In this document: positions 12,792 through 63,528 of the stretch, piece by piece
Layout: each line of letters opens with the position of its first letter
How positions within the stretch are numbered: the stretch's first letter is position 1
Assembly (NCBI GenBank): GCA_949710005.1
Contig: OX453278.1
Span: 8,151,097 to 8,215,096, forward strand
DNA length: 64,000 nucleotides
Source: Ricordea florida
Taxonomy: Eukaryota; Cnidaria; Anthozoa; Corallimorpharia; Ricordeidae
Reading direction: 5' to 3'
Notes under the pieces: model-generated
Database searches by the model: none
The model's input: the letters and a program-made list of their open reading frames with translations, nothing else
Told to the model about the DNA's origin: nothing
Position numbers and translations under genes: made by a program

Positions 12792-15700
12792 ATGGCAGGT
12801 TCTGGAGTAGTTATCGCTCATATTTTGTGGTCTATTTGTAGCAAATCTCTGATCGCTGTGGTCATATTTTATGTAGCAAAGATTGCTGTAAGGGCTGCAA
12901 CGAAGAGCCAATGGTACAAAAATACGTTTGCAATCTATCAAAAAGCTTGGATAGACCTCGGTAAAAGAATGTTCGTGGGTCCGAAAAAAGAGCTTTTCGC
13001 TCACCTAAGGGCAGGACTCGAGAAAGTTAACGGTGATGTGGTAGAAATTGGCATCGGTTCAGGAGCAAATTTCGATTATTATCCAGATGGAACTTCATTT
13101 ATTGCTGTTGATGCCAATCCTCACGTAGAGAAACTTTTACGAAAAAGACTAGAGGACGTTGATCCAAGAAAGCGCATTCACTTGAAAAAGTTTGTCGTGG
13201 CCTCTGCCGAAGACATGAGTTGTCGAGGAGAGATCGGTGTCGCTGACGATTCTGTTGCAGCCGTTGTTTGTACGCTATTACTTTGTTCGCTTACCGAGGA
13301 CCAAATAAGAAAGACAGTTCAGGAAGCAAAGCGAGTGCTTAAACCGGTTTGTATACTCTTTGTTTTTTTTTTAGCCTGGTCGGTCCGCCGCAAGGTGTAC
13401 TACTGGCCGAGCTGTTCTTCCTCGCAAAGACCGCGTGTGCTCTTAGCTGTGTGCGCGCGTGATCGTAAACATGACCCGCCTAGATTAGCTAAGCAACCCG
13501 CGGGCATGTTATTTTACTCGGAATGATTTCCGCACATGTCCCTACTTTATTATGCATGCTGTAGCCATATTGTTTCATTCTGCAATAACAAAAAATGTTT
13601 ACATGTGAACAATTCATCTGGTGCATGCATAATGAAGTAGGGACCGGTGCGGAAATCTTGCCTTTTACTCTTACCTTATAACACAATAAAATAAAATGTA
13701 TGTATGTATTTGTATGTATGTTGTATGATTTGGTTTTGTCAAGATGTTCTTTTTGCCAAGTGTATATTGTGGTTCAATTTCATTCTTGGTTCAAATTTTA
13801 TTTTCCTTTGTTTCAAACTCATTATCATAAATCACCATAACCAAAACAAAAGAAAATGAAATTTAAACCAATGAAAAAGTTGAACCACAACATAGACAGG
13901 ATACTTTTATTCTTAGTACACAATGTTTTTCGTCCACAACCTGGTTTGTTTGTTTTTTTTTTTTTTCGTTTTGAAAAGTGTTTTCATCTTCAGTGCAAAT
14001 ATATGATCTATTCCATCAAACTGCTAAAGTAGATTAATGACACAGTAATAGGAATTGTATCATTAATTCAGTCATATGATCAGACAAGTATCTAGTACCT
14101 TTAGTTTACTTTAGTTTTATTATTTTCGTCACAAATATTAGATGTATTTTACAAAAGATTCACATCTATGACGGGAGGAAGAAACACTGGGCAAGCGCCA
14201 ATTGACATCAACCTCTTATACCAACATATATTATTATATCAATGTATGTTTTAAATCTTTTTAATAGAAAATTTAATTTTTTCTTTCTTACCAGGGAGGG
14301 AGATTTTATTTTTTGGAACATGTAGCAGGTAACTGTTATTATTGTCATTAAACTTAAATCACTTTCTCGGTTAATTCAAGATTATAGTCCTGAATTATAC
14401 AATTTTCCAGAGCATGTTAGCTGATTCCCATTTTAGTACCATACACATTCAACAAACAATCCTTTGTTAGCTTTAGCAATTGTTTAGATTGCCTGAATTG
14501 CTCCAGTTTTTTCTGGTTCTGTTGGACACCATGGTAACTCAGATTGCCTACATTGCCTTAGCTGATATGCCATTGCTTTTACAGAAGTATTCAAGGACCG
14601 TTCATTTCTTATGAGGGAGGGGGGGCTGTTGTGATTTGGGAAGCACCATTTAATTAAAAATTGCTAGACCCCACACCCAGCTTGCCAATTTTTTCACATG
14701 ACTCCCCCCCCCCCCAGTCTAAAGAAAGAGAAGTCAATTTCGGATTAAAACATTATGACATAAAAGTATTGCTAAAATATTTCACGTGACCCCCCTTTTC
14801 CTAATTTTTTTTACATGACCCCCCTAAATCCCACCAGCCCCCCTCCCCTGTAAAAAATGAATGGTCCCTTTTTTAAATATGATAAATTGTTAAAACAATT
14901 ATTCTCTAAAATCGAGGGAACAGTCACTGTTAAAGTCACTGTTCACCAAGATTGAAGAGAATAACGATATTGTTTTACGACATACATGTACATGCACCAA
15001 TGAAGCAATCTAAGTCACATCAAAGCGGTGACAAAACTTTATTTCAAAAATATGCCATTAAAGTTAAGTGGTTCAGAACTGCCAGCACTATTCACCTCAG
15101 TACTGGTGTTGAATGTACCAAGATGATGAGCCAATCAGATATCTCAAAATGCTAACATTTTTGTATTTTGATGCACACAATATGTCTATTGAACTTAATC
15201 TATACATATTGTATTGTTAATTATTAAATATTTGTATTAATTAAGCGTGTTTGCTCGTAGGACTTTGTTAGATTTGACAGAGGTTTGTGTATTGTGTACT
15301 GCATAAGGTAGAAAACTATCTACTAGCAGTAATGGTAGATTAGGGAGTGCATTCCATACAGTTCAAAAGCGCTGATGAACGTTGCTTAAGTGTTACCTTA
15401 GGTTAAAAGGGATTAGACAGAAGGATGAGTAGTTTTCCTGGATTGTGACAGTACAAAATGTGAACCTCTTAACACCTGGCACAGCCCAATTGACATGATA
15501 GATTACTTTTTCCATGTAAGTACATGCATTAAAGCAAGGTCAATATTGAAAGAGAGGCTGCTTCTCTGGCAAAAAAAATGTTTGTGGGGACTAAATTTGC
15601 ATTGACCACAGAGAGATAGAAACCCCAAACAATTTCACCTGTATTACACAGGAAACCCAACATGTGTACCTGACACCATCATAAGAGTAGGTTAGTATCA

Positions 15701-15976
15701 AAGGCAATGAAAAGACATTTATTTGTTGCAGACACACCAGGTACACTACGATATTACATGCAACAGATTGTGTCCTTGACCAGACTGTGGCCCACACTTC
15801 TCAATGGCTGCTGCTGCAATGTAGAAACCATCAAGTTCATACAGCAAGGTTACTTCAATCATCTCTCCTTCAAGAGACTTTGTGTTGAGTGTTCAGAAGA
15901 AATGAGTAGGTTTAGAATTCTGAAAATAGTTCAGTACTTTGCTGCTCCAATGGTGACTGGCTATGCCGAGAAGTGA
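12792..15976 (+). CDS. Gene A: METTL7/TMT1-like SAM-dependent methyltransferase, three exons
   Basis: Exons 12792-13346, 14295-14328 and 15732-15976 join in phase to 277 residues. Residues about 6-36 are a hydrophobic membrane anchor. SAM motif I is E85-IGIGSG91, the acidic residue ending motif II is D107 (FIAVDANP), and VVCTLLLCS (158-166) follows. The 34-nt second exon gives GGRFYFLEHVA and the last exon gives DTPGTLRYYMQQ... ending GYAEK. Vertebrate METTL7A/B are about 244 residues, ER or lipid-droplet thiol S-methyltransferases. The same chemistry is inferred here, with substrate unknown. The exon 1 donor is the weak GTTTGT; exon 2 has AG/GTAACT borders. The reading frame is intact, but transposons sit right at the ATG. 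Intron 1 carries an insertion at about 13350-13713 that gene B lacks. Confidence 0.88.
13525..13657. mobile_element. MITE in intron 1 of gene A
   Basis: 35-bp inverted ends lie at 13525-13559 and 13623-13657 (GATTTCCGCAC...TTATGCATGC and complement). The matching intron position of gene B goes straight from GGTTTGT to TATGATT, so the wider 13350-13713 insertion is specific to copy A. A TATG microsatellite (13695-13720) flanks it. Confidence 0.7.
14594..14869. mobile_element. MITE (GGACCGTTCATT ends) in intron 2 of gene A
   Basis: Ends AGGACCGTTCATTTCTTATG and its complement near 14869 enclose G-rich and C-rich halves. The same element is at the same place in gene B (20806-21069), so it was there before the duplication. 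Confidence 0.75.
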
Positions 15977-17639
15977 CCCTAAAAGAAACAACTTGTTGAA
16001 TTTACCACCATTTAAATTTAATGGAATAAATACAGCTGAATAAGTGAAAATATACCAGTAAGGTAATCTGTTTTTGTTATGCAAGTAAAAGGTAAAAAAG
16101 TCCAGATTTCAAAACTTAAGAGAGCGGACAGCATTTTTTCCTCAATATTATTTCCAAATTTCAAATTTCCACATAATTACTCACCCCTTTTAAGAAAGAG
16201 AAAATGGGAAGTATTTACACCAAAGTTTAACTTTAACATTATTGTTTTTGTACTTATTAATTACTTTGATCAGTGAAAATATAAGGAAGAAAAAGGTAAC
16301 TAAATAATACAAGATAAACAAAAAAAATCTGAACAATAAGGAGATTAAAGTGCATAGTGGCCAAAGTAGTACAAGGCTTTCGAATTGGCCTCTACCACCT
16401 GTAAATTAACAATAGAATATAATGGAAAAGGAAAAGAGAGAAACTAATAGCAATTAATTATTAATAATCGAAATTCAAATTCAAATTAATTAACAAAATA
16501 CCGGTAATTTTTAAGGGAAAAAAATGATACTGAAAGTCAGTATGGCACTTGATAATCAGTCTTTATAGTCTTGCTCAGGAGGAAGAACTTGTGATTCTTT
16601 TGCAATGAGCTGAAAGGCGTCATTTATATTTGCAGAGGGATTTTTTCCCATATCCTTGACGCAATTGATTTCAACCTTGACAGACCATAGTTTGTTCTGG
16701 AAGCTGGTCTGTAGAGGTTGCTGTTGCTAGTTTTGTAGTTATGAATATCAGAAGCTGATGAAATTAATTCAGTAATGGCTTTTGGGAGGGTTGATTTAGT
16801 GTAATATTTTATCTTTATTATGCCCATACTATGCAAAGGGGAAAAGAGGATTTCAAAGTGCATGTTAATTAAAGCCATGCTGTAAGCAGGAGTTCTTACA
16901 CATGTTAGTACTGTACCTTTTTATATACCACTAGTTTAATAAAATCAAGAGGATCGAGTTGGCTTTTATATACACTGAAAACACCATTGACAAATATACA
17001 TCTAAAACCTTTTTTTTTCACATTACCATCTAGTGTAAACATCTTCCTAACATTTGGCAAGTCTCTACCGAACTATACATGTATGAGTTTTATGAACACT
17101 GTCTTTTAGGTAAACAAGTTGTTGACCAAGCTTTTGCAAATTTCTGAAATCCCTTTATGTCTCCACCTAAACCTTACTCACCTCATAAGTTTTGAAATAT
17201 CTGTAAACATGATTGCAATAAGTGTTGTTGACACACAAAATAATCTGGGTTATGTTTACAAAGATTAGTATTAGACCAATCAGCACACTCCTTACATTTA
17301 TCAAATATTATTCAAAGTAATAAACATTAGCCAGTCCATTTAATAGAATTGTTGTTCATGCTTCTAATAAATTCACAACTCAATTAATGGCAACAAATTT
17401 TTAGAGGAATAAAGTATTAATCTACATGTTTCAACCAAAACACTACATTTTAAAAAAAGTATTCCATGCCTTCAGGCATTATTTTCTTTCCAGAGTTTCT
17501 GCAAGACGAAAACTCATAAATCTTTCCTGGGAATTCAGTATGGTTTCCCTGGCTTGAATTGATTTGATTATCAAATTAAGATTGAACTAAAGAAATTTTC
17601 ATTGCAGAGTATAAACAAGCTTTCTTAAAACATGTAAGG
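15977..17639. other. Downstream flank of gene A, shared with gene B
   Basis: This non-coding stretch aligns with 22190-24211 downstream of gene B, apart from an insertion present only in copy B. The only recognised content is a LINE remnant at 16550-16878. Confidence 0.6.
16550..16878 (-). mobile_element. LINE C-terminal remnant
   Basis: The minus strand encodes YRPASRTNYGLSRLKSIASR followed by IWEKIP, the pattern that closes many non-LTR RT ORFs. It is repeated at 23090-23410 as part of the gene duplication. No RT core remains. Confidence 0.55.
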
Positions 17640-17782
17640 TCACACTTCAGCCCATCTACTAACAGTTGACGACACAACATACAAAACTATAGCATTACGC
17701 AGTTTTAGTAACCATAAATTTGCTGGAAGTTTGAGAGAGAATGTATTGTAACACAAATTTTTGAACCCAGCCTCCTCTAAGA
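17640..17782 (-). pseudogene. Truncated copy of the last exon of gene C
   Basis: From the TGA at 17640 to about 17782 the minus strand matches the last exon of gene C (24212-24354), encoding the end of the family domain up to the EEAG region. Homology then stops abruptly and an unrelated repeat begins. It is the tail of the left duplication unit, not a gene. Confidence 0.8.
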
Positions 17783-18596: not shown

Positions 18597-21500
18597 ATGG
18601 CGGGTTCTGGAGTAGTTATCGCTCATATTTTGTGGTCTATTTGTAGCAAATCTGTGATCGCTGTGGTCATATTTTATGTAGCAAAGATTGCTGTAAGGGC
18701 TGCCACGAAGACCCAACGGTACAAAAATACGTATGCAATCTATCAAGAAAGTTGGACAGACCTCACTAAAGGAATGTTCGCGGGTCCGAAACAAGAGCTT
18801 TTCGCTCACCTTAGGGCAGGACTCGAGAAAGTTAACGGTGATGTGGTAGAAATTGGTATCGGTTCAGGAGCAAATTTCGATTATTATCCAGGTGGAACTT
18901 CATTTATTGCTGTTGATGCCAATCCTCACGTAGAGAAACTTTTACGAAAAAGACTAGAGAACGTTGATCTAAGAAATCGCATTCACTTGAAAAAGTTTGT
19001 CGTGGCCTCTGCCGAAGACATGAGTTGTCGAGGAGAGATTGGTGTCGCTGACGATTCTGTTGCAGCCGTTGTTTGTACGAAATTACTTTGCTCGCTTACC
19101 GAGGACCAAATAAGGAAGACAGTTCGGGAAGCAAAGCGAGTGCTTAAACCGGTTTGTTGTATGATTTTGTTTTGTCAAGATGTTCTTTTTGCCAAGTGTA
19201 TGTTGTGGTTCAATTTTATTCTTGGTTCAAATTTTATTTTCCTTTGTTTCAAACTCATTATCATCAACTTACCTTAACCAAAAGAAAAGAAATCAAAATT
19301 TGAACCAAGGTAAAAATGAAACCATAACATAAACCGAAGTGCCCAATTTTTTCCATGTAGACATGATACGTCAACGCCTTGTTAATAAATCAATAATGAT
19401 GTACAAGATTGTAAATAATATGGTTCCGGAATATCTTTGTTCATGCTTTGTCTTCCGTTCCGATACTTTGACTTATAACCTAAGAGGCAGTGATGGTACG
19501 CTTGCTATCCCACAGCCCCGCACTAATTACTGTAAAAGAAGTCTTTCTTACAGCGGAGTTGTACTATGGAATAGTCTGCCCTTGAATATTAGACAATCGC
19601 TCTCTCTTAATCAGTTTAAATCTAAGTTGAAGAACTATGATTTTGACAGTGGTCTTATATAAATTTTATTTTGTTTTTATACACGGCTTCCTTGTAAAGC
19701 AGGTTTTTATCATTTCTCTTTTTAGTAGTTTTATAATATTAAATTAGTTAGGTAGTTACATTTATTTAAATTAAATATTGTATAGTCCTGAAGGAAATAC
19801 CGTGTCTAAATAAAGATTTACTACTACTACTACTACTACATACTGTTATTCTTATTACAATCTTTTTTTTTCATTAGGGACCGGTCATTATTTATGTGGG
19901 GGGGGGGGGGGAGAAATCATGGGGTGGGCCAGGCCTATTTTTTTTTAGAGAAAAGGGGTGGGCCAAAAGCGTCAGAGTTGGTAAGGACAGTGATGAGAGT
20001 GACAATGACCTTGTTTTGTGTGATGAAAGTGAAAGCGAAAGTGAATCAGATGATGACAGTCATACTGTAACAATACAAGAAGGCACATCAACAAGAAGTG
20101 GCTGCAGAGTAGGACACTGGTCCACAAGATATGCTGATTTTGTTCAGTGAAGAGGAACTCCTTATATAGGTATAGATTGAAGGAGGCTGGGGGTGGGTCA
20201 CCTCTTACATAAAGTTTATGGGGGTGGGTCAAGAATTAACTAATGGGCTTAAAGGGGTGGGTCATGCTTTTTCTTTCATGCTAAAACAATACAAATCCCC
20301 CCAACCCCCCCTCCCACATAAATAATTACTGGTCCCTTATAACAATTGGTTTCATCCTCAGTGCAAGTATATGATCTATTCTATCAATGAAATCAAATTG
20401 TTTATAGGAGTTGTATCATTAATTCAGTCAGATATGATCAGACAAATATCTAGTCCCAATATATATTTTAAATCTTTTAAATAGAAAATTTAATTTTTTC
20501 TTTCTTACTAGGGAGGGAGATTTTATTTTCTGGAACATGTAGCAGGTAATTGTTATTATTTGAATTAAACTTAAATCACTTTCTCGGTTAATTCAAGATT
20601 ATAGTCCTGAATTGTACAATTTTCCAGAGCATGTTAGCCGATTCCCATTTTAGTACCATACACACTCAACAAACAATCCTTTGTTAGCTTCAGCAATTGT
20701 TTAGATTGCCAGAATTGCTCCAGTTTTTTCTGGTTCTATTGGATACCATGGTAACTCAGATTACCTATGTTGCCCTGATATGCCATTGGTTTTACAGAAG
20801 TATTTAGGGACCGTTCATTTTTTATGAGGGAGGGGGGGCTGGTGTGATTCGGGAAGCACCATTTAGAAATTGCTTGACCCCCCTCAGGTTCCCAATTTTT
20901 TGACATGATTCCCCCTTCATAAAAAGAAACAGAAGTCATTTTGAGATGAAAACACTATGACATAAAAGTATTGCTAAAATACTTCATGTCACCCTCGTTT
21001 TCCCTAATTTTTTTGCACGACGCCCCAAATTCACCATTCCCCCGTCCCTTGTAAAAAATGAACGGTCCCCTTTTTTAAATATGATAAATTGTTGAAACGA
21101 TTATTCTCTGAAATGGAGGGAACAGTCTACTGTTAACGTCACTGTTCACCAAGATTGAAGAGAGTAACAGTATTGTTTTATGGCATTACATGTACACACA
21201 CTGATGAAGCAACCTCGTGCACATCAAAGCGATGACAAAACTTTATTTCAAAAATATGCCTTTAAAGTTAAGTGTTTCAGAACCGCCAGCACTATTCAAC
21301 TCATAGCAGATAAATAGTACTAGTGTTGAATGTACCAAGATGATGAGCCAATCAGATATCTCAAAATGCTAACATTGCTGAGTCGGTGCATACAAAATGT
21401 GTCTGTTTACCTGATCTGTACATATTGTATTGTTACTTATTAAATATTTGTATTATTTAAGCATGTTTGCCCATAGGACTTTGTTAGATTTTACAGATGT

Positions 21501-22189
21501 TTGTGTAGTGTACTGCATAACGTAGAAAACTATCTACATGTACTAGTAGTAATGGTAGATTAAGGAGTGCATTCCACACAGTTCAAAAGGGCTGGTGAAC
21601 ATTACTAAAATGTTACCGTAGGTTAAAAGGGATTAGGCAGAAGGATGAGTAGTTTTCCTGGATTGTAACAGTACAAAATTTGAACCTCTAAACACCTGAC
21701 ACAGCCCAATTGACAACATGACAGATAACCTTTTCTATGCGAGTACATGCATTAAAAGCATTGAAAGAGAGGCTGCTTCCCCTGGAAAAAAATTTTGTGG
21801 GGACTACATTTGCATTGACGACAGAGAGATAGAAACCCCAAACAATTTCACCTGTATTACACTGGAAACCCAACACGTGTACAGGACACCATCACAAGAA
21901 TAGGTTAGTATCAAAGACAATTAAAAGACATTTATTTGTTGCAGACATGCCAGGTACACTACGATATTACATGCAACAGATCGTGTCCTTGACCAGACTG
22001 TGGCCCACAATGTACAATGGCTGCTGCTGCAATGTGGAAACCATCAAGTTCATACAGCAAGGTTACTTCAAGCATCTCTCCTTCAAGAGACTTTCTGTTG
22101 AGTGTTCAGCAGAGATGAGTAGATTTAGAATTCAGAAAATAATTCAATACTTTGTTGCTCCAGTGGTGACTGGGTATGCCGAGAAGTGA
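18597..22189 (+). CDS. Gene B: METTL7/TMT1-like methyltransferase, three exons
   Basis: Exons 18597-19151 (555 nt), 20512-20545 (34 nt) and 21945-22189 (245 nt) join to 277 residues, the same lengths and phases as gene A. The membrane anchor, motif I E85-IGIGSG91, D107 and the GGRFYFLEHVA microexon are all present. Differences from A include residues in 39-66 and TKLLCS for TLLLCS. The last exon reads DMPGTLRYYMQQ to GYAEK. Introns also align with gene A, showing a recent duplication of genomic DNA rather than retroposition. Intron 1 has gained a LINE fragment and a MITE that A lacks. The upstream flank is intact, so of the pair B is the likelier to keep ancestral regulation. The enzyme role is inferred from family. 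Confidence 0.9.
19333..19850 (+). mobile_element. 5'-truncated LINE in intron 1 of gene B
   Basis: About 107 codons of an RT C-terminus (DTLTYNLRGSDGTLAIPQPR, then GVVLWNSLPLNIRQ) are followed by a 3' UTR, AATAAAG and a TAC microsatellite (19826-19848). It is absent from gene A, so it entered after the duplication or was lost from A. Confidence 0.8.
19875..20339. mobile_element. G-rich MITE in intron 1 of gene B
   Basis: Ends TAGGGACCGGTCATTATTTA and the complement of that type at 20339 (ACTGGTCCCTTA) enclose a G-run on the left and C-runs on the right. It is related in style to the 14594 and 27775 elements and absent from gene A. Confidence 0.7.
20806..21069. mobile_element. MITE in intron 2 of gene B
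   Basis: Orthologous to 14594-14869 by position and sequence, with ends AGGGACCGTTCATTTTTTAT and its complement. Confidence 0.75.
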
Positions 22190-22611
22190 CCCAAAAAGTA
22201 ACGAAAACGTGTTGAATTTACCACCGTTTAAATTGAATGGGTTAAATACAGCTGAATAAGTGAGACAGCCATAATGCACCTTTGTTTAGGTTTACAGAAA
22301 ATATACCAGTAAAGTAATTTGTTTTTGTTATGCAAGTAAAAGGTAAAAAAAGACCAGATTTCAAAACTTGAGAGAGCAGACGGCATTCTTTCCTCAATAT
22401 TATTTCCAAATTTCAAATTTCCACATAATTACTCACCCCTTTTAAGAAAGAGAAAGTGGGAAGCATTTACACTTTATTGTTTTTGTACTTATTAATTAAA
22501 TTGATTAGTGAAAATAATAAGGAAGAAAAAGGTAACTAAATAATACAAGATTAACAAAAAAAGGAACAATAAGGAGATTAGAGTGCCCTGCCACCTGTTA
22601 ACAATAGAATA

Positions 22612-22821: not shown

Positions 22822-22852
<31 letters not shown>

Positions 22853-22968
22853 AGTTTGGGAGAACTCGAAAAAGCTGTGGAAATCCCACAGCATTTCTCG
22901 TTCTCCCAAACTTCCACTCGTGTTTCTATAACTCGATAGAAACACGGTACATGTTTTCTTTTTCTTAA
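22612..22968. mobile_element. Foldback MITE found only in copy B
   Basis: Inverted arms at about 22821-22945 carry GTTTCTATCGAGTTATAGAA and AAGTTTGGGAGAAC with their complements. The paralogous site downstream of gene A (about 16420) lacks it. A related partial sequence lies at 44880-44970. Confidence 0.75.
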
Positions 22969-24211: not shown

Positions 24212-27200
24212 TCACACTTCAGCCCATCCACTAACAGTTGATGACACAGCATACAAAACTATAGCATTACACAGTTTTAGTAACCATAAATGTGCCGGAA
24301 GTTTGAAAGAGAATGTATCGTAACACAAATTTTTGAACCCAGCCTCCTCTAAGAAGAACCAAGTTTGGCGGTTAACATGGCACCCACAAAATATGGCAGT
24401 CCAGAGTCCAGATGCCTCAAACAGCTGTTGAATGTAGCTCTTCAAAGAACCAGATGTATCTGTGATGATAATATCACAGGGTTAATTATAATTCACTCAA
24501 ATGTGATTGGTCAAAAAAACTGCAGTTATCGAACTGCTGTAATCAGACAGTTATATCAACCAATCATTTTTATTGCTCCTGACTAAGTAGACCAAACAAC
24601 ACAAGAAATAACTTACCTATGAAACCAAAATGTAGGAATTGAAAACAATTAGTTGATTAAATTGGTCCAAAAGAATATTATATTATCTATAAAACTGCAA
24701 TAGTTATGATGAACGGGTAGCATGAGTTTGTGAGGGGGGGAGGGGAGGGTGGGGGAGGGGTTGGGTTTCCAATACTTCTATATTGCAACGACAAAAGTAA
24801 AAACACCACAATCACGTCGTAAAACTGCACTTTAACAAGAGAACTGGAAGTGGCAGGAACCAAGTGAAAACAGTAGAAACGCAACAAGGCATACATATTT
24901 TCGACAATTAAGATGAGTTAAGAATTTGTCGCATTTCCAGTAATAAATATTCCCTCTCGATGTTTTGTAATCATCCAGAAAGTGCTATTTCAAATTAAGC
25001 TCGTCTGCTATTCATGGCAAGTTGGCTGAATGGTCAGCGGTTGATTTCATTCAAACAATTTGTTACGTCACTTCCGCTATTTCTGCTAACGCCGCCACAT
25101 CCGTCTACGCAGATTTCTGCTAACGCCGTTTCCCCCCTCTCCACAATGACTCATCCATTGCTTCGCAATGAATGAGTTAAAAGTAGGGCAAATCGGCACC
25201 ACTGCAAATCCTTACATCCCGCTGATAAGATAGATGTGGACTCCACTCAGTCTTCTCAGCATTAGGGAGTTTAAGAAACGATGATGGCTACGACTAGGAC
25301 AACCCCACAAGACAATAGGAAAAACAAAGACAGGTCTGCACGGACTCCCAATGTGGTTTTTTGGTTGCGTCGCATTATCAAAAGCCTTCGTATTATAGTT
25401 TTGCTCTTACAAGCATGTCTCTCAGAGATTTACCTCTTTTGTAAGATATGATTGGAGGCTTATTAAAAATTGTTTTCAGCAGAGGCTGATTTTCTATGGA
25501 ACTCCAGTTTTCCATCACGATTTTGTTAAGATTTTTTAATGCAGGGTGGTATGCAGTTACAAAAGGCAATAGTCTCTCTGCCGTTTTTTGTTTTTGGGGT
25601 TTAAGAGCCGATTGTCTTGAGTCAAAGATGACCTCTGACAGGGCCCTTTCTATATATTTCTTCGGATACCCGCGTGCTTCGAGGCGTCGTTTGAAGTTTG
25701 CAAGGCACTATTCGAATGTTTTTTTTTTTGAAGAGTTTGTTCTAAGCAGTCGTATTGCTTCGCCTTTGATAAAGCGTCTTTTTACCCCTGGAGGGTGGCA
25801 CGAAGTGAAATGGGTATATTGAAAGGTTTCGGTCGGCTTGTAGTGAGTTTTGATGTCCAGGATGGATTTTTCTATGAATCTCTGAGCCTGATTATCGGTG
25901 AACATTCACCGAGACGAAGTCGAGGTGAATATTCACCGATAATCACTGAGCCTGAGGCAAATAATTGTTTTAGTATAAATACACAGGTGATTATTTCAAA
26001 AAAAGAAAAGAAAAAGCACTGTACAACACGAAAAAAGTTTATTTCATCACAAGCGTGCGAACGACTGACAGCCATTTTGTTCGTCGAGGTTATTATCGGC
26101 TGATAATCCGAGATAGCGAACCAATCAGAGCGCGCGACTTTGTATATATAATCACCTGAGTATTTATACTACGTAGTATTATTTACTGTAGCAAATATAC
26201 CTACCTAGGACATGCTCCAAGAAAAAAAATTTTCCACCCTAATGAAATAAATAATAAAGACAAGGTTACAGTTAGTTGGTTCAGGCATTCAGAATGACAT
26301 ACATTAAATTTATCATTCAAGTAATAATAGAAGTACATGTACAATAGCATGTTCCTCATGCAAAACTATTTTCACTTCTTGTAGTGGGTGGAGGGCAACC
26401 TGTTGGTATTTTGTTTTGCAAATTATGCTTTCCATCCTGTGTGGAGTAGTTGGAATGGGGTGTGGCATACAGAAGTTCCAAAACCACATACTGTTCAACG
26501 AAAACTACACTAAGACAATCAGTAGAGTCGATTGTATTTAATCACTTGGCTCACTTGTATTCACTCGTTACAGCAGTTGTGCAAGAGCTACTCTCTTAAA
26601 CATGGAAAGGAACGCTCGATTTCATACTAGTATACATTAGATATGCTTGGTTGTTGCTAAGCGATAATCAGAAAAAGGTCAATCAATTCTTGCAGCTAAA
26701 GTGTTCATTGTCTCATATACTCCAGACCCAATTTAAACATCGGTGTTACTATATTGTAACGTAACCTGAAGTCTCCGACACACTAGTATGTGTTCAGGGA
26801 TACACATTTCAATAGTGATATGGTACGGGGATACACATATCACTAGTGATATGTGTATCCCCGGTGGGGGTACATAAAATACTGATTTACGACAATCAGA
26901 CAAAGTGGCGGATGATTTGCTTCCCTGCTAACAGAGGTCTCTCATGGACCGTGAGAGACCTCTGTTAGCAGGGAAACAATTATCGTTGTATGAAAGAAGG
27001 AGATAAGAGACCATCTTATGAGCTACTGCCAAACTTAGAGGCTAGAGTTCAGTGAATGTGGGAAATAAATAAGAGAAGAAATGTTACAAAGAAAAAGGTA
27101 ATTGATTGTTTCAAATTGTTTATCACTTATTGGCTTGTGTGAGCTTTTTGGCACGGCTCGTACTCGACGTCTTTGTGAGGAATAGTTGTAAGTTTTATAG

Positions 27201-30200
27201 TAGTGAAAACAACCATTAATACTGCGATTACTACTGCGATTACTATATTTCTGTTGAACCCCAATCGAGAAGACTTCATTGCCTTGAGCGGCTTTATTAT
27301 AGGTTTTAAATTTTAAATTTAAAAATTGCCCAGAGTTAGGCTCAGGGTTCGTATACTGTCGTCACTGCATTAGATGAACTGTAACAGAGATACGGTGGGA
27401 AGAGAGGCAAGGTGGGCACAGAGAACCAGTGAGCGCAAAGGAACAGTAAGCACAGAGGGACAGTGAAAACAGAGGGGTAGTAGGCACAGAGGAACGGTAG
27501 GCACAGAGGAACAGTAGTCAAAGAGGAAATATGGGCACAGAGGAACAGTATAGGTACAGAGGAATCGTCAGATCATCGTCCACAAGCCATGAGCCCAGAA
27601 TTATTCCTATGAAGCAACTACTGAAACATTTAGTTGCTGAGATATTTGTACAGCGTACTGATGTGCTTGTTTTATGTTTAATACGAAAAAGCCAATTTTA
27701 TTATTCCAAAGTAATTTTCAAATTTCCATGAGAAATAGTGCATATATATTTATTGACGCCTGATAGCAATGTCATTTGGGACTGTTCATTATTTATGGTT
27801 GGGGGGAGGGGAGGGGGGCGGTGATTTTTTAACCAACTTACGCAGATTAAAAATGTACCCCTTCTCAAAAATTTCCCCCCTCCCCCCCCCCCACAGTTTA
27901 TGCCACTGGCCCGAAACAAAGCTCAATTTAATATATCTGCAAAACGGCAACAAAAGGGTTGAAACAACGGATTCTAAGAGGTTACCCCCATCGATTCTAC
28001 TGTATTTAAAAAAACACAACCCCATCTCCCTTGGTTTTGAAAATTTTATTCCCCCCCCCAAACTATATCCCAGGCATGTCAAATCAGCCTTCCAGCCTGA
28101 CAGTGCATTGCTTGCAGGGATTTCCCACGATCCAGGTTGTTACGGTTTCCCAAAATTGTGATTCTGTATGTTAAAGAAGGGAGGATCATCTTGAAGTGAA
28201 GGTCAAGATCTAGAAGTGATTTTCTCTTTAGAAAAGAGTACTTTTTCAAAAAATTCATGTTTATGTTCAATTCTTCCTTAATAAATATATTAACCCTAAC
28301 CATATCTTCAGATGAACCGAGAACAAAGCTTTTGAGATGAACATCCCACGAACCCTGTTTTAAATTCTCCTGCAATAGTTCTTCTGCAAATGGATTCGGG
28401 TCCACGCCTATGAGAGAAGTACCAGGATAAAAGCGAAAGTTTGAACCTTCACCGATTCCAATCTCCAGAACATCGCCCTCCTCCTTTTCCAAACTCTGCA
28501 AGATGGCTGAAAATTCTTCGTTTCGCCGGCTCTATTAATTCTTGAACTGGCTCGTATTTCACGACGTTGAATTCGAAAGAGGTGAACCATTTTCTGTAAC
28601 GCTTAGTAGCAAATACGGCGAGAAGAGCTTTCTTCCAAAGGATAGCTGCGAGAAGAACTGAAAGTATGGAGGCAAACAGTGATCCAGTTGTGAGCTCCAT
28701 CTTCTTAAAAGCAAATCCTCCGGACCGAGCCTTCCACTGCTAGAAAGAAGCCCTGGGTACGATAGTGCGCATTGGCGAAAACTTTCGCGGGAAAAGTGAC
28801 GAGTTGAAACTTGAAAATCTCAATGTTTCTTGGGAACGGCGGGAAAAACTTTTGAGTATAAATACGCAATCGTAAAACTAATAATTTCTCATTCTACAAA
28901 TCTGTTCTTTCAAAATATCTCAGACAGAAATATCTCCTATGTTTTAGCAAAGTATAATAGACAGAAATGTCTTTGTTTCCCTAAACAATTTTATTGTCGA
29001 AAAGGAAAATTACGGCACGTGAAGTGTCACGTTGTGTGACTGTTATGTAACTTCTCGTTATGTTATTTCCGCGAGTATCGTGAAATTTAATCTTGTCAGT
29101 TACGTTGATTGACAGTCTTAGCACATGTTGGATCTCAGTATTGGAATCTAATGCTCTCCAAGTCGAGGAGGACGTGTATGCCGTTGATTGACAGTCTTAG
29201 CACATGTTGGATCTCAGTATTGGAATCTAATGCTCTCCAAGTCGGGGAGGACGTGTTATTTGTGACTGTTTTTCTTTTTATAATGTCTTTTGGAATGAAA
29301 TTAAGTTTGAATTACAATCACTTGACAAAAGTAGTAAAACAGCATCACGTTGGTCAGAAACACTACAAAATGGATGTAAATGTTGTCGAAATCGTGGCCC
29401 ACGTTGGGGGATACACACTACAGACAAAGTCATCCTGTAAATTTGTGTGTTTTGTATCGCCTCGTTCTCCTTGATAATGAGTCATAATCATCATGGCATT
29501 GACTCAGAGAAAAATGCATCAATGGCTATACTGTGAGTGAGGCCCCATTAGGGGTTTTAGGAATACAGGATATTTGCGAAAAAAAATATAGGGATACGGA
29601 ATATTTCGGGGAAAAATTATAGGGATACGGGATATTTCGGGGAAAAATTATAGGGATACGGGATATTTAGAAAAGAGATAGCGGGATATCGAACGTCAAA
29701 GTTTTTTTTTGACAGAATAAAACAGGTTAATTGATCAATATGAAAGACGCGAAAAGTAAAAAAAAGTACTTGAAAATGTGAATTAATGTATTTCCCTAAG
29801 AAAAAACATTGTAGTCATCCTTCAAACCCTATTTGCACTCGATTTCTATTTTAAAAGTATGAAACCGCACCGGAAAATGTGTTTTACATTATTTGGTAAT
29901 CGGACTTATCACATGCAGTGACATCATCAGTATTAACTTGAATTATATGGATACAAACTACAGGAATTAATGGGATACGGGATATTCAGATCCCCCCTAA
30001 TGGGGCCTCGTGAGTCCAAAGCATATAGAGTTAATCTGAAAATCTTTATTCTCTTGTGTCCTCTGGTTCTGTCGTCTGTCCTCTTGTGTCCTCTGGTTCT
30101 GTTATTCACGTTGTTATTGCTGATGGCAGTTTACAAATCGCAGAAGCAAATGCTATCCATTTCTTTGGAGGGTAGGGGGGTAGAGGATACGCATATTACT

Positions 30201-30971
30201 GGCAGCCATACTGGAGGGGATACAAATATGGCTAGTGATATGTGTGAAACCGTATTAACCCCTACTTCATTATGCATGCATGTTGTAGCTGAATGAGGTT
30301 TTAAGGGTGTTGCACTTGTAACCATTTCTTGTTTTCGAAGAAGAAAGCAGTTCGGCCACAGCATTAAATAGTAGGTGCCTCTGTTAGATCATTAACTTAA
30401 CTTACTATACACAAGTCGTAAAATAACACCTACGCACCGGTTTCAGAACTCTTTTCACTTCTCGCAGAGTGTCGCGCAATTGACTGACCGTCATTGAGCA
30501 CAGCACAAACGTACAAACCACGGCAGCGACTGACTGGTCTGGTATTCCACTCGCTCCCTTTGGTCTCATATCTTCAGACGAACCGAGAACAAAGCTTTTG
30601 AGATGAACATCCCACGAACCCTGTTTTAAATTCTCCTGCAATAGTTCTTCTGCAAATGGATTCGGGTCCACGCCTATGAGAGAAGTACCAGGCGGATAAA
30701 AGCGAAAGTTTGAACCTCCACCGATTCCAATCTCCAGAACATCGCCCTCCTCCTTTTCCAAACTCTTTGCAAGATGGCTGAAAATTCTTCGTTTCGCCGG
30801 CTCTGTTAATTCTTGAATTGGCCCGTTTATCATGAAGTTCAATTCAAAAGAGGTCAACCATTTTCTGTAACGCTTAGTAGCAAGTACGGCGAAAAGAGCT
30901 TTCTTGCAAAGGATAGCTACAAGAAGAACTGAAAATATGGAGGCAAACAGTGATCCCGCTGTGAGCTCCAT
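24212..30971 (-). CDS. Gene C: METTL7/TMT1-like methyltransferase, three exons
   Basis: Minus-strand exons 30971-30438 (534 nt), 26238-26205 (34 nt) and 24459-24212 (248 nt) join in phase to 271 residues. The N-terminal anchor spans about 5-31. Motif I is E80-IGIGGG86, motif II ends VDPNP with D102, and VVCTFVLCS is at 151-159. The microexon gives GGKFFFLEHVL, and the last exon runs from DTSGSLKSYIQQ to SGWAEV. Donors are GTGCGTAG and GTAGGT; acceptors end in AG. The 4.2-kb first intron holds a broken copy of exon 1 (28301-28700), a MITE and palindromes; the second holds a Penelope fragment. Another open exon 1 lies further upstream at 45859-45326. Linking these exons over 6.8 kb is an inference from phase, order and family structure. 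Confidence 0.8.
25390..25905 (-). mobile_element. Penelope-like RT fragment in intron 2 of gene C
   Basis: The minus strand reads LDIKTHYKPTETFQYTHFTS, then CHPPGVKRRFIKGEAIRLLR. After one frame break it continues RRLEARGYPKKYIERALSEV and ISYKRGKSLRDMLVRAKL. This is the C-terminal region of coral Penelope-type RT proteins as I recall them. It is broken and truncated. Confidence 0.65.
25880..26185. mobile_element. MITE with hairpin next to the gene C microexon
   Basis: The left part holds an inverted repeat (GATTATCGGTGAACATTCAC and its complement, 25890-25943). The right part has GGTTATTATCGGCTGATAAT and ends about 20 bp from the donor of the microexon. No coding capacity. Confidence 0.6.
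26827..26862. repeat. Perfect 36-bp palindrome
   Basis: GGGGATACACATATCACT is followed directly by its exact reverse complement. A related phrase occurs at 30190-30245. It lies in intron 1 of gene C. Confidence 0.9.
26921..26975. repeat. Perfect 24-bp-stem hairpin
   Basis: TTCCCTGCTAACAGAGGTCT plus CTCA pairs exactly with 26952-26975 across a 7-nt loop. It is 58 bp from the palindrome at 26827 and may be part of the same foldback element. Confidence 0.9.
27405..27575. repeat. Short degenerate tandem repeat
   Basis: About ten imperfect units of GGCACAGAGGAACAGTA, varying in length. Intronic in gene C. Confidence 0.7.
27775..28080. repeat. G-run and C-run low-complexity element
   Basis: It starts GGGACTGTTCATTATTTATG with a G-rich stretch and continues with long C-runs at 27877-27892 and 28052-28060. 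It resembles one side of the GGGACC-type MITEs, but no clean right end was found. Confidence 0.45.
28301..28700 (-). pseudogene. Broken first exon of the METTL7-like family
   Basis: It is nearly identical to exon 1 of gene C from its ATG (28700-28698). A 2-nt deletion at about 28497 shifts the frame before SAM motif I, a codon is missing at the YPPG region, and homology ends after GAAGATATG at 28301, before the catalytic core is complete and before the normal donor. It carries its own copy of the upstream flank (28701-29538). It is a dead partial duplicate within intron 1 of gene C. Confidence 0.85.
29102..29255. repeat. Tandem 79-bp duplication in the shared flank
   Basis: GTTGATTGACAGTCTTAGCA through GGAGGACGTG occurs twice here, but once in the paralogous flanks at 31373 and 46258. 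Confidence 0.8.
29539..30009. mobile_element. MITE with 6-bp target duplication GTGAGT
   Basis: Inverted ends GAGGCCCCATTAGGGG and CCCCTAATGGGGCCTC bound 471 bp rich in GGGATACGGGATATT. GTGAGT flanks both sides (29533-29538, 30010-30015). The paralogous sequence at 31728-31745 reads straight through one GTGAGT, a precise empty site. A relative is at 51565-51942. Confidence 0.9.
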
Positions 30972-45325: not shown

Positions 45326-45859
45326 CGGTTTCAGAACTCTTTTCACTTCTCGCAGAGTGTCGCGCACTTGACTAACCGTCATTGAGCACAGCACGAACGT
45401 ACAAACCACAGCAGCGACTGACTGGTCTGGTATTCCGCTCGCTCCCTTTGGTCTCATATCTTCAGACGAACCGAGAACAAAGCTTTTGAGATGAACATCC
45501 CACGAACCCTGTTTTAAAGTCTCCTGCAATAGTTCTTCTGCAAATGGATTCGGGTCCACGCCTATGAGAGAAGTACCAGGCGGATAAAAGCGAAAGTTTG
45601 AACCTCCACCGATTCCAATCTCCAGAACATCGCCCTCCTCCTTTTCCAAACTCTTTGCAAGATGGCTGAAAATTCTTCGTTTCGTCGGCTCCATTAATTC
45701 TTGCATTGGCCCGTCATTCATGAAGTTGAATTCGAAAGAGGTGAACCATTTTCTGTGACGCTTAGTAGCAAATACGGCGAGAAGAGCTTTCTTGCAAAGG
45801 ATAGCTACGACAAGAACTGAAAATATGGAGGCAAACAGTGATCCCGCTGTGAGCTCCAT
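45326..45859 (-). pseudogene. Orphan first exon of a METTL7-like gene
   Basis: 534 nt, fully open, 178 codons closely matching exon 1 of gene C. The anchor, motif I EIGIGGG and VDPNP are intact, as is the same GTGCGTAG donor. The duplicated block covers 45005-46302, intron start and 5' flank included. No microexon or last exon was found between it and the LINE, so alone it cannot make a whole enzyme. It could be a dead copy, or an alternative first exon spliced to gene C exons 2-3 some 19 kb away in the same direction. Confidence 0.7.
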
Positions 45860-48917: not shown

Positions 48918-51900
48918 TCACACTTCTGCATAGCCACAAAGAATTGATGAAGGCAGATATAGAGCAATGGCTGATTCAAGTAGCCAGCTTTCTGGTGGCG
49001 GTTCTAAAGAAAATCGTTTGTACGATATATTCTTGAAACCTGCTTTCTCCAAATGAAGCCACGTTTTGCGGCCAATATGACAGCCACCCAACAGGTTAAC
49101 CCAAAATCTCGATGACTCTATTACCTTCTGAATCGAGTGTCTCCATGTACCTGCCTCATCTGCAGAAAGTTAAAAATGGACCCAGGGGGTTCATTAGGTA
49201 TCGGAGATCGAAGACTATTCTCCGGCTACTACGAAGAATTCTCCGGCTACTACGAAGAATTCTCTGGCCAAATTTAGATGGCCTGAGCTAGTTTTAAATT
49301 TAGACTTGGAGCGCTTTCAGAATATTCTCCTGTTACTTTTACACAATTCTTCTGCTACTAAAATTCTTATTGAAAACCCTGTGGACCTGAGTTAAAATAC
49401 AGCTTACTATGATTTAGTTTTTTCGAAAGCTAATTGGTTAAGTCTAGGCCAGGGTGATATTCTCCTCTTCTCTGGACTAAATAATTAGTTCTTTTCTTTA
49501 GGTATTCCATTCAAACTTGCGTAAATGAAATAGATGTGGTTAAGTTAATTTTTTTTTATTCGCGATCAAAATACCCAACAGAGAGCCAAACAGACATAAT
49601 CATGGCTTCTTAGTAATTTCAAAGTGCATCCAATAAGATTAGGTAACCAAATAGTTTCGAGCGAAATTTGGAATAAATGAGCAAAAGTAGATTTTTTAAA
49701 GACTAAAAAACTTTGTTGTCTTTGAGAAATTTACGAATGCTTATTTACTATATAAAATTGCACTCGAAATCATCACGTCATTACTCGATAATAATATACG
49801 TGCAAAAATTTAATTTCAGTTTTTTGCACTCAATTCAGCTTTCTGCACTGTTTGGGATTATCTGACGTGCTTTCAGCCAATCAGTGTGTGTGTTGGAATT
49901 ATTACATGTTCATTACTGATAGAGATATTAGTGTAGCAGTTGGATATCCCACCAATTATGTGGCACATTTATAGAAATGCCACCCTGGAACAAAATCTGA
50001 ACGTACGAATCAAAACTTACCTAAAACGTGTTCCACAAAGAAAAATCTTCCACCCTGAATTGATACAAGAAAACAAGGTAAGACCATTGGCTAAGGTACA
50101 AATATACAAATTAAATATTTAACCGTATAATTTTTTAAGGGTGGGTACGGCGTACCCATGCTAACTTTGCTTATTAACCGCAACTTTGATACGGCTTAAT
50201 GAAACCCGACAAATATTTTAGCAATTCAAGAATTATTTCCTAAACGTGGAAAGGCAGAGAAAAATGTATTATTTCACTTTCTGCAATTACATGAAAGACC
50301 TGTGTTGATGACAGTTGAACTTTGCGCTTTGGTTTAGAATACATGTATAAGTTTGAGAACGGTAACTCCCTTTGTAAAACAAAATATATGTAGACAGGAT
50401 GGGCTCCTGATATAGATGCGACTCTTTCCGCAAAGTGACTTAATTTTTGTGGTTACTCCGTCCTACGGAGTACCACTTTGTCATGGCGCTATGCGAGTCC
50501 GTCCGTAACAATAGAATGTGACGTCACAATAGGATGACGTCTCTGGCTTAAGGCCAAGGTCGGTGCGTGCAAATAAATGCATTTGTATGTCCTTTTAGAT
50601 CGTTATTTCTTAAAAACTTAATCGATTAAGGAAATCCTATTTCAGGTTTCTTCTGCCGGGTAATTGAAAAGAAAAATTATTTTTCAGATTTTTACAGACA
50701 CGTGAAAACAGTTCTGAAACCAAGAGATATTATATAAAAGATATTACAAAAGTCTGGCATAATCCCTACTTTTAGTAGGTAATCTAATAAAGATTCAATA
50801 TATTAAATTATACCCGAGAATTTATTTCTTGAATTTTAGAGTTTAGAAAACAACAGAACGACGAACGCGAATAAAAAAAACATCGACATTCACTTCTACA
50901 AAAATTTGAAACGCATAATATGAATCAGGGTTCAAAATAAAATTTCGGATCTGGCCTAAATTTGTCGGCTTTTTATTTTCAATTCTCATATTTTACCGGC
51001 TGTCAATACTAGTAATGTTCTCACACTTTCCGCGACTACCTGTTGCCTAGCACGTGACCAAAATCTTCCTGAATGAAATTTCGCTTTCTTCCGTGGGAAA
51101 CCTTGGGATCGTAAACTGATTAAAACAAGATTTCGCAAATATCCCATGCTTTGGACTGCTGATAAAATTTAAGTGCCAAAATATTTTCACTTTAATTAAC
51201 GTGTTTCGCTGCGACAGTTCACTTCCAAACCAATTATGTGAACTATGCAACTTTGTCTAGACAAACTGTCGCGCTTCTTCACTCACAAGCACGGAAATCC
51301 GTGTTATCAAGCAATATGAATATAAAGATGCTTAATTTTTCCACTGAACATTCGAAACATAAAAGAAAATAAGATCTGCATGCATTGCATATAGCCAATG
51401 TTCACCTGACTCTTGATGTTAAAGTAGTACCTGTATTTTTTCACTATGAAAAGGGCTTTCAAAAAACGAGTTTCCATTTATCCTTAACATTTTGGAGTAA
51501 CCACACGCACTCACTGAATGCCTTTAATTAGATTTATCCCCGTGATGGTACGTGCCACGTAAGTGAGGCCCCATTTTGGGGGGGGGGGGGGGGTCTGAAT
51601 ATCCCGTATCCCTATAATTTTTTTCGCAAATATCCCGTATCCCTAAAACCCTAAAATATGTCGGGGGTGGGGGGGGGGGTTGTTTTAAGTCGTAACATTG
51701 TCAATATTTCATGGGGAAATACATTAATTCGCATTTTCAATTACTTTTTTTTACTTTTCGCGTCTTTCATATTGATCAATTAACTTGTTTTACTCTCTCA
51801 AAAAAGAAAACTTTGACGTTCGATATCCCACTATCTCCTTTCTAAATATCCCGTATCCCTATAATTTTTCCCGGAAAAATCCCGTATCCCTATAGTTTTT

Positions 51901-52419: not shown

Positions 52420-53142
52420 CCATAAACGTACCCTATGTTTTGCGAGCTCAGCCACTCCGGAGGGAAGTAACATCGAAAACGGACGTAACATCGAAGAGGG
52501 AAAAAAGTGCGATCATGTATAACCTCTTAACAAGTACTGATCTACTGTTCTATGACACTGTAAGAATCCCCTGAAATCGATCGGGCAAAATAGGAAAACC
52601 ACAGTATTAATCCACCATGACTACGTAACGAAAACATCCATACTTACTTGTTTCAAAACTCTCTTGATCTCTTGCAAAGTTTTCTTGAGTTGCACCTCCG
52701 AAAGAGAACATAAATAGCACGCACTCACGACTGCCGCAACCGATCTGTCCGCGATCGGGATTTCGTTTGCGCCTTTACGTTCCATGACTTCCGATGAATA
52801 GAATTTCAAAGAAAACCCCTTCATGTAATTCTTTCTGTAAACTTTTCCATGGGAGGGTTTTGGGTCCAACGCGATGAAGTACGTTCCTGGGAGAAAATAA
52901 CGTGAGGTTGTGCTCCTGTCCAATCCAATTTCCAGAACATCGCCGCGGACGCTTTGAAAACTCTTTCCAAGTTGACCGAAAAGTTCTTGTCTTGTTGCAT
53001 TGAACAAGTGGTTTGACAGCACTGCAAAACTACATTCTGCTGTTCTTTGCCAATCAAATAAAACAAATGCCAATAATGCAACGACAACCACAACAGTTAG
53101 TGTGTAGCAGAACGCGGGCCATAATGTTGATGAGAATTCCAT
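48918..53142 (-). CDS. Gene D: METTL7-like protein with altered SAM motif, three exons
   Basis: Minus-strand exons 53142-52648 (495 nt), 50054-50021 (34 nt) and 49159-48918 (242 nt) join in phase to 256 residues. Donors GTAAGTAT and GTAAGTTT are strong. The anchor is at about 9-30. The microexon gives GGRFFFVEHVL, and the last exon runs DEAGTWRHSIQK to CGYAEV. The SAM motif I, EIGIGGG in its relatives, is EIGLDRS (71-77), and VVCT is VVSA, while ALDPKP and the LCSL and LKK segments remain. All three exons are open, so the altered motif is not explained by general decay. It may be a non-catalytic or changed-specificity member. The first intron contains a TIR element and a MITE; the second contains a foldback MITE. 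Confidence 0.8.
49650..49920. mobile_element. Foldback MITE in intron 2 of gene D
   Basis: An inverted, diverged relative of 6900-7223, with AAATTGCACTCGAAATCAT and TTTTTGCACTCAATTCAG. Confidence 0.6.
50449..51504. mobile_element. 1.06-kb TIR element in intron 1 of gene D
   Basis: GTGGTTACTCC at 50449 is inverted at 51494-51504. An inverted copy occupies 58370-61875, where it is split by a 2.45-kb insertion. Matching sequence continues a little beyond the right end (ACGCACTCACTGA), so the true border may lie outside. No transposase frame. Confidence 0.8.
51565..51942. mobile_element. MITE with 6-bp target duplication GTAAGT
   Basis: Ends GAGGCCCCATTT and TAATGGGGCCTC with repeated ATCCCGTATCCCTA inside. 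GTAAGT flanks both ends (51559-51564, 51943-51948). Same family as 29539-30009, in opposite orientation by its internal repeats. Confidence 0.88.
52388..52415. repeat. CT microsatellite
   Basis: About 14 CT units in intron 1 of gene D. Confidence 0.95.
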
Positions 53143-54423: not shown

Positions 54424-54499
54424 ACAGTTCTCCAGGATAGTGATGCTATTTCCACCTTTTCTAATTGCACTCGGGCTCTGATATGCAGTCTAGCCTCTC

Positions 54500-61093: not shown

Positions 61094-61875
61094 GTTTGGA
61101 AGTGAACTGTCGCAGCGAAACACGTTAATTAAAGTGAAAATATTTTGGCACTTAAATTTTATCAGCAGTCCAAAGCATGGGATATTTGCGAAATCTTGTT
61201 TTAATCAGTTTACGATCCCAAGGTTTCCCACGGAAGAAAGCGAAATTTCATTCAGGAAGATTTTGGTCACGTGCTAGGCAACAGGTAGTCGCGGAAAGTG
61301 TGAGAACATTACTAGTATTGACAGCCGGTAAAATATGAGAATTGAAAATAAAAAGCCGACAAATTTAGGCCAGATCCGAAATTTTATTTTGAACCCTGAT
61401 TCATATTATGCGTTTCAAATTTTTGTAGAAGTGAATGTCGATGTTTTTTTTATTCGCGTTCGTCGTTCTGTTGTTTTCTAAACTCTAAAATTCAAGAAAT
61501 AAATTCTCGGGTATAATTTAATATATTGAATCTTTATTAGATTACCTACTAAAAGTAGGGATTATGCCAGACTTTTGTAATATCTTTTATGTAATATCTC
61601 TTGGTTTCAGAACTGTTTTCACGTGTCTGTAAAAATCTGAAAAATAATTTTTCTTTTCAATTACCCGGCAGAAGAAACCTGAAATAGGATTTCCTTAATC
61701 GATTAAGTTTTTAAGAAATAACGATCTAAAAGGACATACAAATGCATTTATTTGCACGCACCGACCTTGGCCTTAAGCCAGAGACGTCATCCTATTGTGA
61801 CGTCACATTCTATTGTTACGGACGGACTCGCATAGCGCCATGACAAAGTGGTACTCCGTAGGACGGAGTAACCAC

Positions 61876-62048
61876 AAAAAAGTTGGCAGGTATAGCACTG
61901 TGGAAGATGTGCTTCCAACATAGGCAGAATCACCCATGAAAGAAGCTGCAGGGGAAAGACGTCTCAACTATGAACCAAAACGATACACTATTCTGATTCA
62001 GTCTACTTAGCTGCAAGACCGTCAGCATAGACGAAAAGAGCCACACAT
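61876..62048. other. Short spacer
   Basis: Nothing recognised. Confidence 0.4.
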
Positions 62049-62802: not shown

Positions 62803-62993
62803 CACATACAACTACAGTTACCAGGAGCGAATCACCTGCTGCAATTACTTATAAGTGTCCTGAATGTTACCTGTCACGCAACTACGTGACACATCAAGTT
62901 TACTTCAAACAAAACTTGGACCTTCATATACCAAACACGTCACATCGCCATCTTTGTTTGTGCAAGGGATCACGTCAAAAGTAATTTTGTATC

Positions 62994-63528
62994 ATGGAAT
63001 TGCTCTGGTCTACACTGTGCTACGCACTCGCCACCCTCGTGGTTCTTGTGGTCGCGGCACTTGGCAGGAAAGCTTTGTTAACATTGGTCGCAACTAATTG
63101 GTACCAGAAGTGGTGGGTAGGCTTTGAAAACCGCTATGCAGAGTTCGGTAAAGAGGCTTTCCATCCAGCGAAGCAAAAGCTCTCTGAACAGCTCAAGAAA
63201 ACCTTGCAATCGATCGGTGGCGACGTTGTGGAAATTGGAATCGGTGGTGGTGCAAACCTGAGCTACTATCCACCCGGAACTTCTCTCATAGCCGTGGGAT
63301 TTGAGTCCCTTCGCTGAAAAGGTTATCCGTGAAAACATCAAGAAATTGTCCTCGAATATCAACCTTAAGAGATGCGTTGTTGCATCGTGCGATGATATGA
63401 ATCCAAAGGAAGCGACCGGCGTGGCAGATAAATCGGTCGCCGCTGTGGTGTGTACAAATTTGATGTGCTCACTGACCGAGTCGCAACTAAAGAAAACTCT
63501 TCAGGAAATCAAGAGAGTTTTGAAACCA
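62994..63528 (+). CDS. Gene E: METTL7-like methyltransferase, first exon with 1-nt frameshift
   Basis: The exon opens with MELLWST and an anchor (about 7-30) and carries EIGIGGG as motif I. It shifts frame in the GGG run at 63296-63298, just after LIAV. Dropping one G restores the family pattern (AVDLSPFAEK) and a full exon of 534 nt ending LKP with the strong donor GTAAGTATC at 63529. VVCTNLMCS follows the usual place. Exons 2 and 3 would lie beyond the window. The single extra G is either a true null mutation or a sequencing or assembly error in a homopolymer; everything else looks intact. Confidence 0.75.

Follow-up and report, generated by a model that had tools for sequence, protein, structure and literature searches.

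Introduction

Among the closest described relatives of the genes reported here are human TMT1A and TMT1B (METTL7A and METTL7B), methyltransferases of sulfide and drug thiols whose normal role is unsettled (PMC7921093, PMC10705543). METTL7B is reported there to methylate H2S, dithiothreitol, captopril and other alkyl thiols, but not cysteine or glutathione, and alteration of its SAM-anchoring acid, D98, to alanine abolishes activity (PMC7921093). TMT1A activity is described as conserved to zebrafish, and TMT1B was reportedly not found in chicken or zebrafish (PMC10705543), so that a preliminary description of the present locus, which gave vertebrates two such genes, was too broad. The bacterial H2S and methanethiol S-methyltransferases MddH, MddM1 and MddM2 are reported to show extended residue and structural similarity to human TMT1A/B, and a possible common ancestor has been suggested (PMC12904073). 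Searches of an open-licence library listed no paper on this family in cnidarians; the papers listed for cnidarians or invertebrates were a review of lipid droplets, a study of m6A in a nematode and one of tomato-nematode proteomics.

The locus compared with these systems below lies in a 64-kb stretch of DNA (the window), C7:8151097-8215096 of a 538-Mb, 48-contig genome. We read it as a tandemly expanded, structurally modified and partly decayed TMT1-like subfamily of putative membrane-anchored, SAM-dependent methyltransferases.

Exon organization of the window

Copies of exons 1, 2 and 3 were located by tblastn of exon translations against the window. Positions 12792 to 63528 contain exon 1 in seven copies, the middle exon in four, and the last exon in four complete copies plus one fragment. 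Together with one duplicated segment, the features are as follows.

12792..13346, + strand: gene A exon 1, with the N-terminal hydrophobic segment and the SAM-binding core (tblastn, exon joining, Pfam)
14295..14328, + strand: gene A exon 2, 34 nt, encoding GGRFYFLEHVA (tblastn, joining)
15732..15976, + strand: gene A exon 3 including the stop (joining)
16421..17782, no strand given: segment behind A, duplicated with 22968-24354 (82%; DNA self-comparison)
17643..17780, - strand: C-type exon 3 fragment, within the duplicated A/B unit (tblastn, self-comparison)
18597..19151, + strand: gene B exon 1 (tblastn, joining)
20512..20545, + strand: gene B exon 2, 34 nt (joining)
21945..22189, + strand: gene B exon 3 including the stop (joining)
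24212..24459, - strand: gene C exon 3 including the stop (joining)
26205..26238, - strand: gene C exon 2, 34 nt (joining)
28301..28700, - strand: partial copy C3, a frame-broken exon 1 with its 3' end cut short (tblastn, self-comparison)
30438..30971, - strand: gene C exon 1 (tblastn, joining)
45326..45859, - strand: partial copy C2, an intact exon 1 with the donor as in C (tblastn)
48918..49159, - strand: gene D exon 3 including the stop (joining)
50021..50054, - strand: gene D exon 2, 34 nt (joining)
52648..53142, - strand: gene D exon 1, SAM motif I degenerate (EIGLDRS) (tblastn, joining, motif alignment)
62994..63528, + strand: gene E exon 1, two frames one base apart (62994-63296, 63298-63528), followed by the donor GTAAGT (tblastn)

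The preliminary description had proposed four rebuildable genes, and A-D could indeed be joined from three exons each, giving proteins of 277 (A and B), 271 (C) and 256 (D) amino acids with no internal stops. All eight introns of these genes are GT...AG and their positions are common to all four; the phase is 0 at the end of exon 1 and 1 at the end of the 34-nt exon 2, and exon 3 varies little in length (242-248 nt). The fifth gene said to start at the edge is present as exon 1 of E, with a one-base frame break, and the three partial copies assigned to the same family, C2, C3 and the exon-3 piece, were each matched by tblastn.

The B protein is 90% identical to A, while A/B, C, D and the additional gene F (see below) are mutually 35-48% identical. 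Exon-1 matches between the A/B, C/C2, D and E groups ranged from E ~1e-12 to 1e-41 and exon-3 matches between groups from 1e-9 to 1e-21; exon 1 of A, C, D or E matched the broken C3 at 1e-5 to 1e-38. Searching 20 windows shuffled in 2-base blocks with seven whole-protein queries, of which two were human, gave no chance match better than E 0.007.

The window also holds unrelated features. An intronless cytochrome P450 frame lies at 1284-2810 on the + strand (PF00067, E 1e-103), with CYP17A and CYP1A as the nearest solved chains; it was considered as a pathway partner of the cluster and set aside, as a single neighbour is no evidence of a pathway. A LINE-like reverse transcriptase frame of 663 aa occupies 31859-33850 on the + strand (PF00078, E 2.5e-24), between C and C2. 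By self-comparison, long tandem arrays with units of ~82 and ~69 bases lie at 54753-57307 and 40205-41174, and 61088-61880 and 50444-51236 are inverted, near-identical copies (99.6% over 793 bases) that are perhaps a recent transposable element. Pfam searches of nine other open frames in the window gave no match at E 0.001; a tRNA scan of the window and an Rfam scan at the gathering threshold each returned none.

Extent of the cluster in the genome

Whole-genome searches gave matches at 17 of 17 candidates with C as query, 9 of 16 with the cyanobacterial protein L013 and 10 of 13 with gene G, counts that are lower bounds. All matches of the three queries fell on C7 between 8.071 and 8.240 Mb (~170 kb), and as far as these queries show, the local expansion posited in the preliminary description is confined to one stretch of one chromosome. 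Two intact three-exon genes lie outside the window: F (269 aa), whose second intron has a GC donor, and G (252 aa), which has the plain TMT1 layout and lies ~74 kb before the window. Both have the 34-nt middle exon and the intron positions of A-D. Gene E has a matching intact 34-nt exon 2 outside the window; no exon 3 of E was found in the part of the flanking DNA examined. The cluster is a real tandem family, larger than the window alone shows, with a structurally distinct subfamily.

The same genome contains GFP-family exons, with 61 of 106 candidates confirmed as matches and matches in 0 of 14 control genomes. They lie mostly on C11 at ~9-20 Mb, with four on C4 and C15, and many contain internal stop codons. 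GFP expansions are a mark of anthozoans, and these matches fit an anthozoan and make the cnidarian host of the preliminary description likely.

Relationship to human and bacterial TMT1-like proteins

A profile search of the joined proteins, proposed as a check in the preliminary description, found Pfam Methyltransf_11 (PF08241) in all four of A-D, each time above the cut-off (E 1.2e-12 for A). NCBIfam matches of A, C and D were all below cut-off, the best reaching at most 43 bits against cut-offs of 155-575; the one model with a lower cut-off (87) matched at only 18.6 bits. Identity as an arsenite methyltransferase, UbiE, CpaM or another of the NCBIfam families matched is not supported for the three proteins scanned, A, C and D, which missed the curated cut-offs.

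Phylogeny against TMT1, likewise proposed, was carried out with human TMT1A and TMT1B sequences, which were also used in the other comparisons, and with a bacterial sample picked by two motifs, one of them GGxFxFLEHV (90 loci confirmed, 80 kept). The first tree contained 78 of the 80 bacterial loci (proteins >180 aa), A-D and the two human proteins; four window, two human and 13 bacterial rows formed a set with 100/99 support against the other 65, and window and human rows grouped together at 95/78 with a long-branch warning. The second tree (24 of the 80 loci, D left out) placed A, B and C with human at 86/74, and a grouping of human with eight cyanobacterial rows, named after the similarity had been seen, was disfavoured (p-AU 0.034). 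The third tree had 30 rows, including 22 of the 80 bacterial loci, D, F and G. Columns filled in less than 30% of rows were dropped from it; since the insertions described below occur in only 5 of the 30 rows, they should not be what holds the insert-bearing genes together. These genes, A, B, C, D and F, formed one clade at 99/98; adding G lowered support to 80/37, and adding both G and human TMT1 gave 92/96, below the tool's star. A grouping of G with human alone was neither demonstrated nor rejected (p-AU 0.373). The whole TMT1-like clade, with 13 bacterial relatives, was separated at 100/100 from nine other bacterial methyltransferases.

All three trees group the window genes with human TMT1, and membership in the METTL7/TMT1-like family, as first described, is well supported. 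Strict orthology with vertebrate TMT1 is not supported by the pattern of identities and scores. G is 40% identical to cyanobacterial proteins versus 34-36% to human TMT1, and human TMT1A is 38-40% identical to cyanobacterial L001 and L013 versus 30-34% to A-D, F and G. By score, too, TMT1A is nearer to cyanobacterial proteins than to A-D, and for C the match to L001 (138 bits) exceeds that to TMT1B (125 bits). This closeness of TMT1A to cyanobacterial proteins speaks for either fast change in the animal copies or a less simple history. When orthology is taken as one-to-one descent without insertions, A, B, C, D and F fall outside it, as each carries four insertions. A search for relatives in viral contigs gave 128 stretches that fit a pattern, none of which was confirmed as a relative.

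Insertions and motifs

Four insertions set A, B, C, D and F apart from G, human TMT1A/B and four bacterial relatives, all of which lack them. Their positions were assigned with strand numbers from a model of the bacterial relative L001 (pLDDT 93.3, pTM 0.89, seven strands); a structure predicted from the window exon-1 alignment (A2, 5 rows) had a mean pLDDT of 40.8 and was discarded. The first insertion lies between strands 3 and 4 and is 5-7 residues beyond G and human. The second, of two residues, comes directly ahead of the helix that follows strand 4 and a few positions past the conserved LCS, and the third adds two residues in the helix after strand 5. The fourth adds 8-10 residues between strands 6 and 7. 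Judged from the class I fold in general, the insertions are likely in loops near the acceptor site.

The GxGxG SAM loop is kept in A, B, C, F and G, and E has GIGGG in its 5' piece. D has lost two SAM-loop glycines and for this reason is probably not a normal methyltransferase. At the place of METTL7B D98, A, B, C, D and F have an aspartate and G has a glutamate. The conserved LCS cysteine and the EH pair are kept in A, B, C, F and G. All of A, B, C, D, F and G carry an N-terminal hydrophobic segment, with a mean hydropathy of 2.0-3.4 across 19 aa; the four bacterial relatives have no such segment (0.4-0.8).

Duplication, selection and decay

DNA self-comparison pairs 14240-16353 of A (intron, exons 2 and 3) with 20457-22586 of B at 86%, and exon 1 of A and B at 95%. 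The segment 22968-24354 behind B contains part of C's last exon, which makes the stray piece at 17643-17780 a by-product of the A/B duplication. Directly before A's ATG lies a stretch of ~1.4 kb, 11360-12786, that is absent at the matching place in B; the ATG context is repeated at both of its edges, as expected of a target-site duplication. It parts A from its 5' flank and may have changed A's promoter.

A and B are separated by 15 silent and 32 replacement changes, which gives a dN/dS of 0.61 (one-sided p 0.09). Taken alone, exons 2 and 3 have fewer replacement changes than the neutral expectation (one-sided p 0.04, one of several tests, uncorrected), and exon 1 alone showed no departure from neutrality (two-sided p 0.82). 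In exon 1 of C versus C2 there were 7 silent and 14 replacement changes (one-sided p 0.20). Silent sites are saturated in comparisons among A/B, C and D.

These data bear on the possibility that tandem duplication left most of the extra copies to decay without a selected role, with function confined to G and perhaps one or two more. The lost glycines of D and the broken frame of E suggest decay, C2, C3 and the exon-3 piece are fragments, A's start codon is cut off from its 5' flank by inserted DNA, and neither A versus B nor C versus C2 differs significantly from a dN/dS of 1 over the lengths compared. However, A/B, C, D and F have retained frames and splice sites at their low mutual identity, which is unlikely without long constraint, and the surviving frames of these distant copies suggest that constraint has acted, as does the deficit of replacements in exons 2 and 3 of A and B. 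We regard such decay of most copies as possible but on balance improbable.

Likely chemistry and acceptor

Because the SAM loop, the acid, the LCS cysteine and the EH pair are kept, the likeliest predicted activity of A, B, C, F and G is S-methylation with SAM as donor, carried out at the ER or lipid-droplet membrane. The position of the insertions near the likely acceptor site, the glycine loss in D and the frame break in E mean that the role and substrates of human TMT1 should not be copied over to this family. The best structural match of the L001 model was 8ys9, a bacterial phosphatidylethanolamine N-methyltransferase (Foldseek E 5.1e-16, 23% identity) and, since this is a phospholipid N-methyltransferase, a lipid acceptor has to be considered.

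The genes might then be TMT1-like by descent but act on another substrate at the membrane, such as a phospholipid head group or a lipid-borne amine. Consistent with this, 8ys9 also turned up in a profile search, as one of six distinct PDB sequences, the weak NCBIfam matches of A and C include a PmtA model, and human TMT1 is without the insertions. Yet the fold is common to many class I methyltransferases (1468 structural matches of the model at E <= 0.001), PmtA scores 27 bits, far under its cut-off of 390, and the genes fall with human TMT1 in the third tree, though no row of that tree was chosen as PmtA. On this evidence a non-thiol acceptor appears unlikely.

The partial copy C2

C and C2 share 1.3 kb at 95%, and C and C3 share 0.9 kb at 94%. 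Differences between C and C2 fall from 7.5% upstream to 3.9% in the exon and 0% in the 323 nt downstream, and within the exon the first 175 nt contain 15 of them and the last 359 nt the other 6. We read this gradient as gene conversion, which may have occurred between C and C2. No later exons of its own were found for C2, which is either an alternative first exon or a dead copy.

At the vertebrate UGT1A locus, alternative first exons are joined to one common C-terminal part. That C2, and once also C3, served in the same way, varying the N-terminal part before the shared exons 2 and 3 of C, is highly doubtful: C2 has an intact 534-nt frame with the donor and phase of C, its join to C exons 2-3 reads through (271 aa), and a first exon has no acceptor, which would make skipping of C's exon 1 natural, but the intactness of C2 may stem from recent conversion with C, C2 is 19 kb from C exon 2 with a reverse-transcriptase element between, and C3 is broken.

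Discussion

Our preferred reading, to which we give a probability of about 0.6, is that the main part of a chromosomal METTL7/TMT1-like cluster of an anthozoan, probably a stony coral, falls inside the window, and that in this cluster an insert-bearing lineage of likely SAM-dependent, thiol-type methyltransferases has spread locally. The structures of the genes, their family placement, the common insertions, the pattern of duplication and the motif loss of D are seen directly; we infer the order of events, the membrane site, catalysis, the substrate and any benefit as follows. A three-exon TMT1-like ancestor, whose plain layout would be retained in G, may have duplicated to give a lineage with four insertions, and this lineage would then have spread locally as A, B, C, D, E and F, leaving C2, C3 and the exon-3 piece as fragments. 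The intact members would be SAM-dependent methyltransferases anchored on the ER or lipid-droplet membrane by the N-terminal hydrophobic segment. SAM would be bound through the GxGxG loop together with the acid that follows strand 2, and its methyl group would pass to a small acceptor close to the loops that follow strands 4 and 5. That acceptor would most likely be a small thiol, sulfide included, as in human TMT1A/B, and the insertions near the acceptor edge probably altered substrate preference.

Tandem expansion of detoxification-type enzymes is common. An early-branching animal with one plain copy next to a modified family offers a natural comparison of the loops that determine the acceptor. 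Should one of the copies produce methanethiol or dimethylsulfide, coral sulfur gases would have an additional, animal source. It is quite unlikely, in our estimate, that the host's own chromosomal cluster methylates sulfide and methanethiol, so making part of the methanethiol or dimethylsulfide around corals in addition to algae and bacteria, with the insert-bearing copies dividing the thiols among themselves, perhaps by way of alternative first exons at C.

Comparison with known systems

The family resembles human TMT1A/TMT1B in the methyltransferase core, the N-terminal hydrophobic segment, the acid at the D98 place, the LCS and EHV motifs and the conserved C-terminal Gly-Cys, and also in the GxGxG loop of A, B, C, F and G; G has the PHLIGYAVK-like C-terminal end in common with them as well. 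It differs in that A-D and F are only 28-34% identical to the human proteins, which are without the four insertions of A, B, C, D and F, and in that D lacks two loop glycines. The bacterial TMT1-like proteins (from cyanobacteria, Flavobacteriaceae and others; L001, L008, L010 and L013) belong to the same fully supported clade, are 29-40% identical to A-D, F and G over aligned columns and share GGxFxFLEHV, which was also a search motif, but the four checked have neither the hydrophobic N-terminal segment nor the insertions. MddH, MddM1 and MddM2 are microbial and are set beside the window genes through their published similarity to human TMT1A/B. The phosphatidylethanolamine N-methyltransferase 8ys9, the closest solved fold to the L001 model, has a different acceptor.
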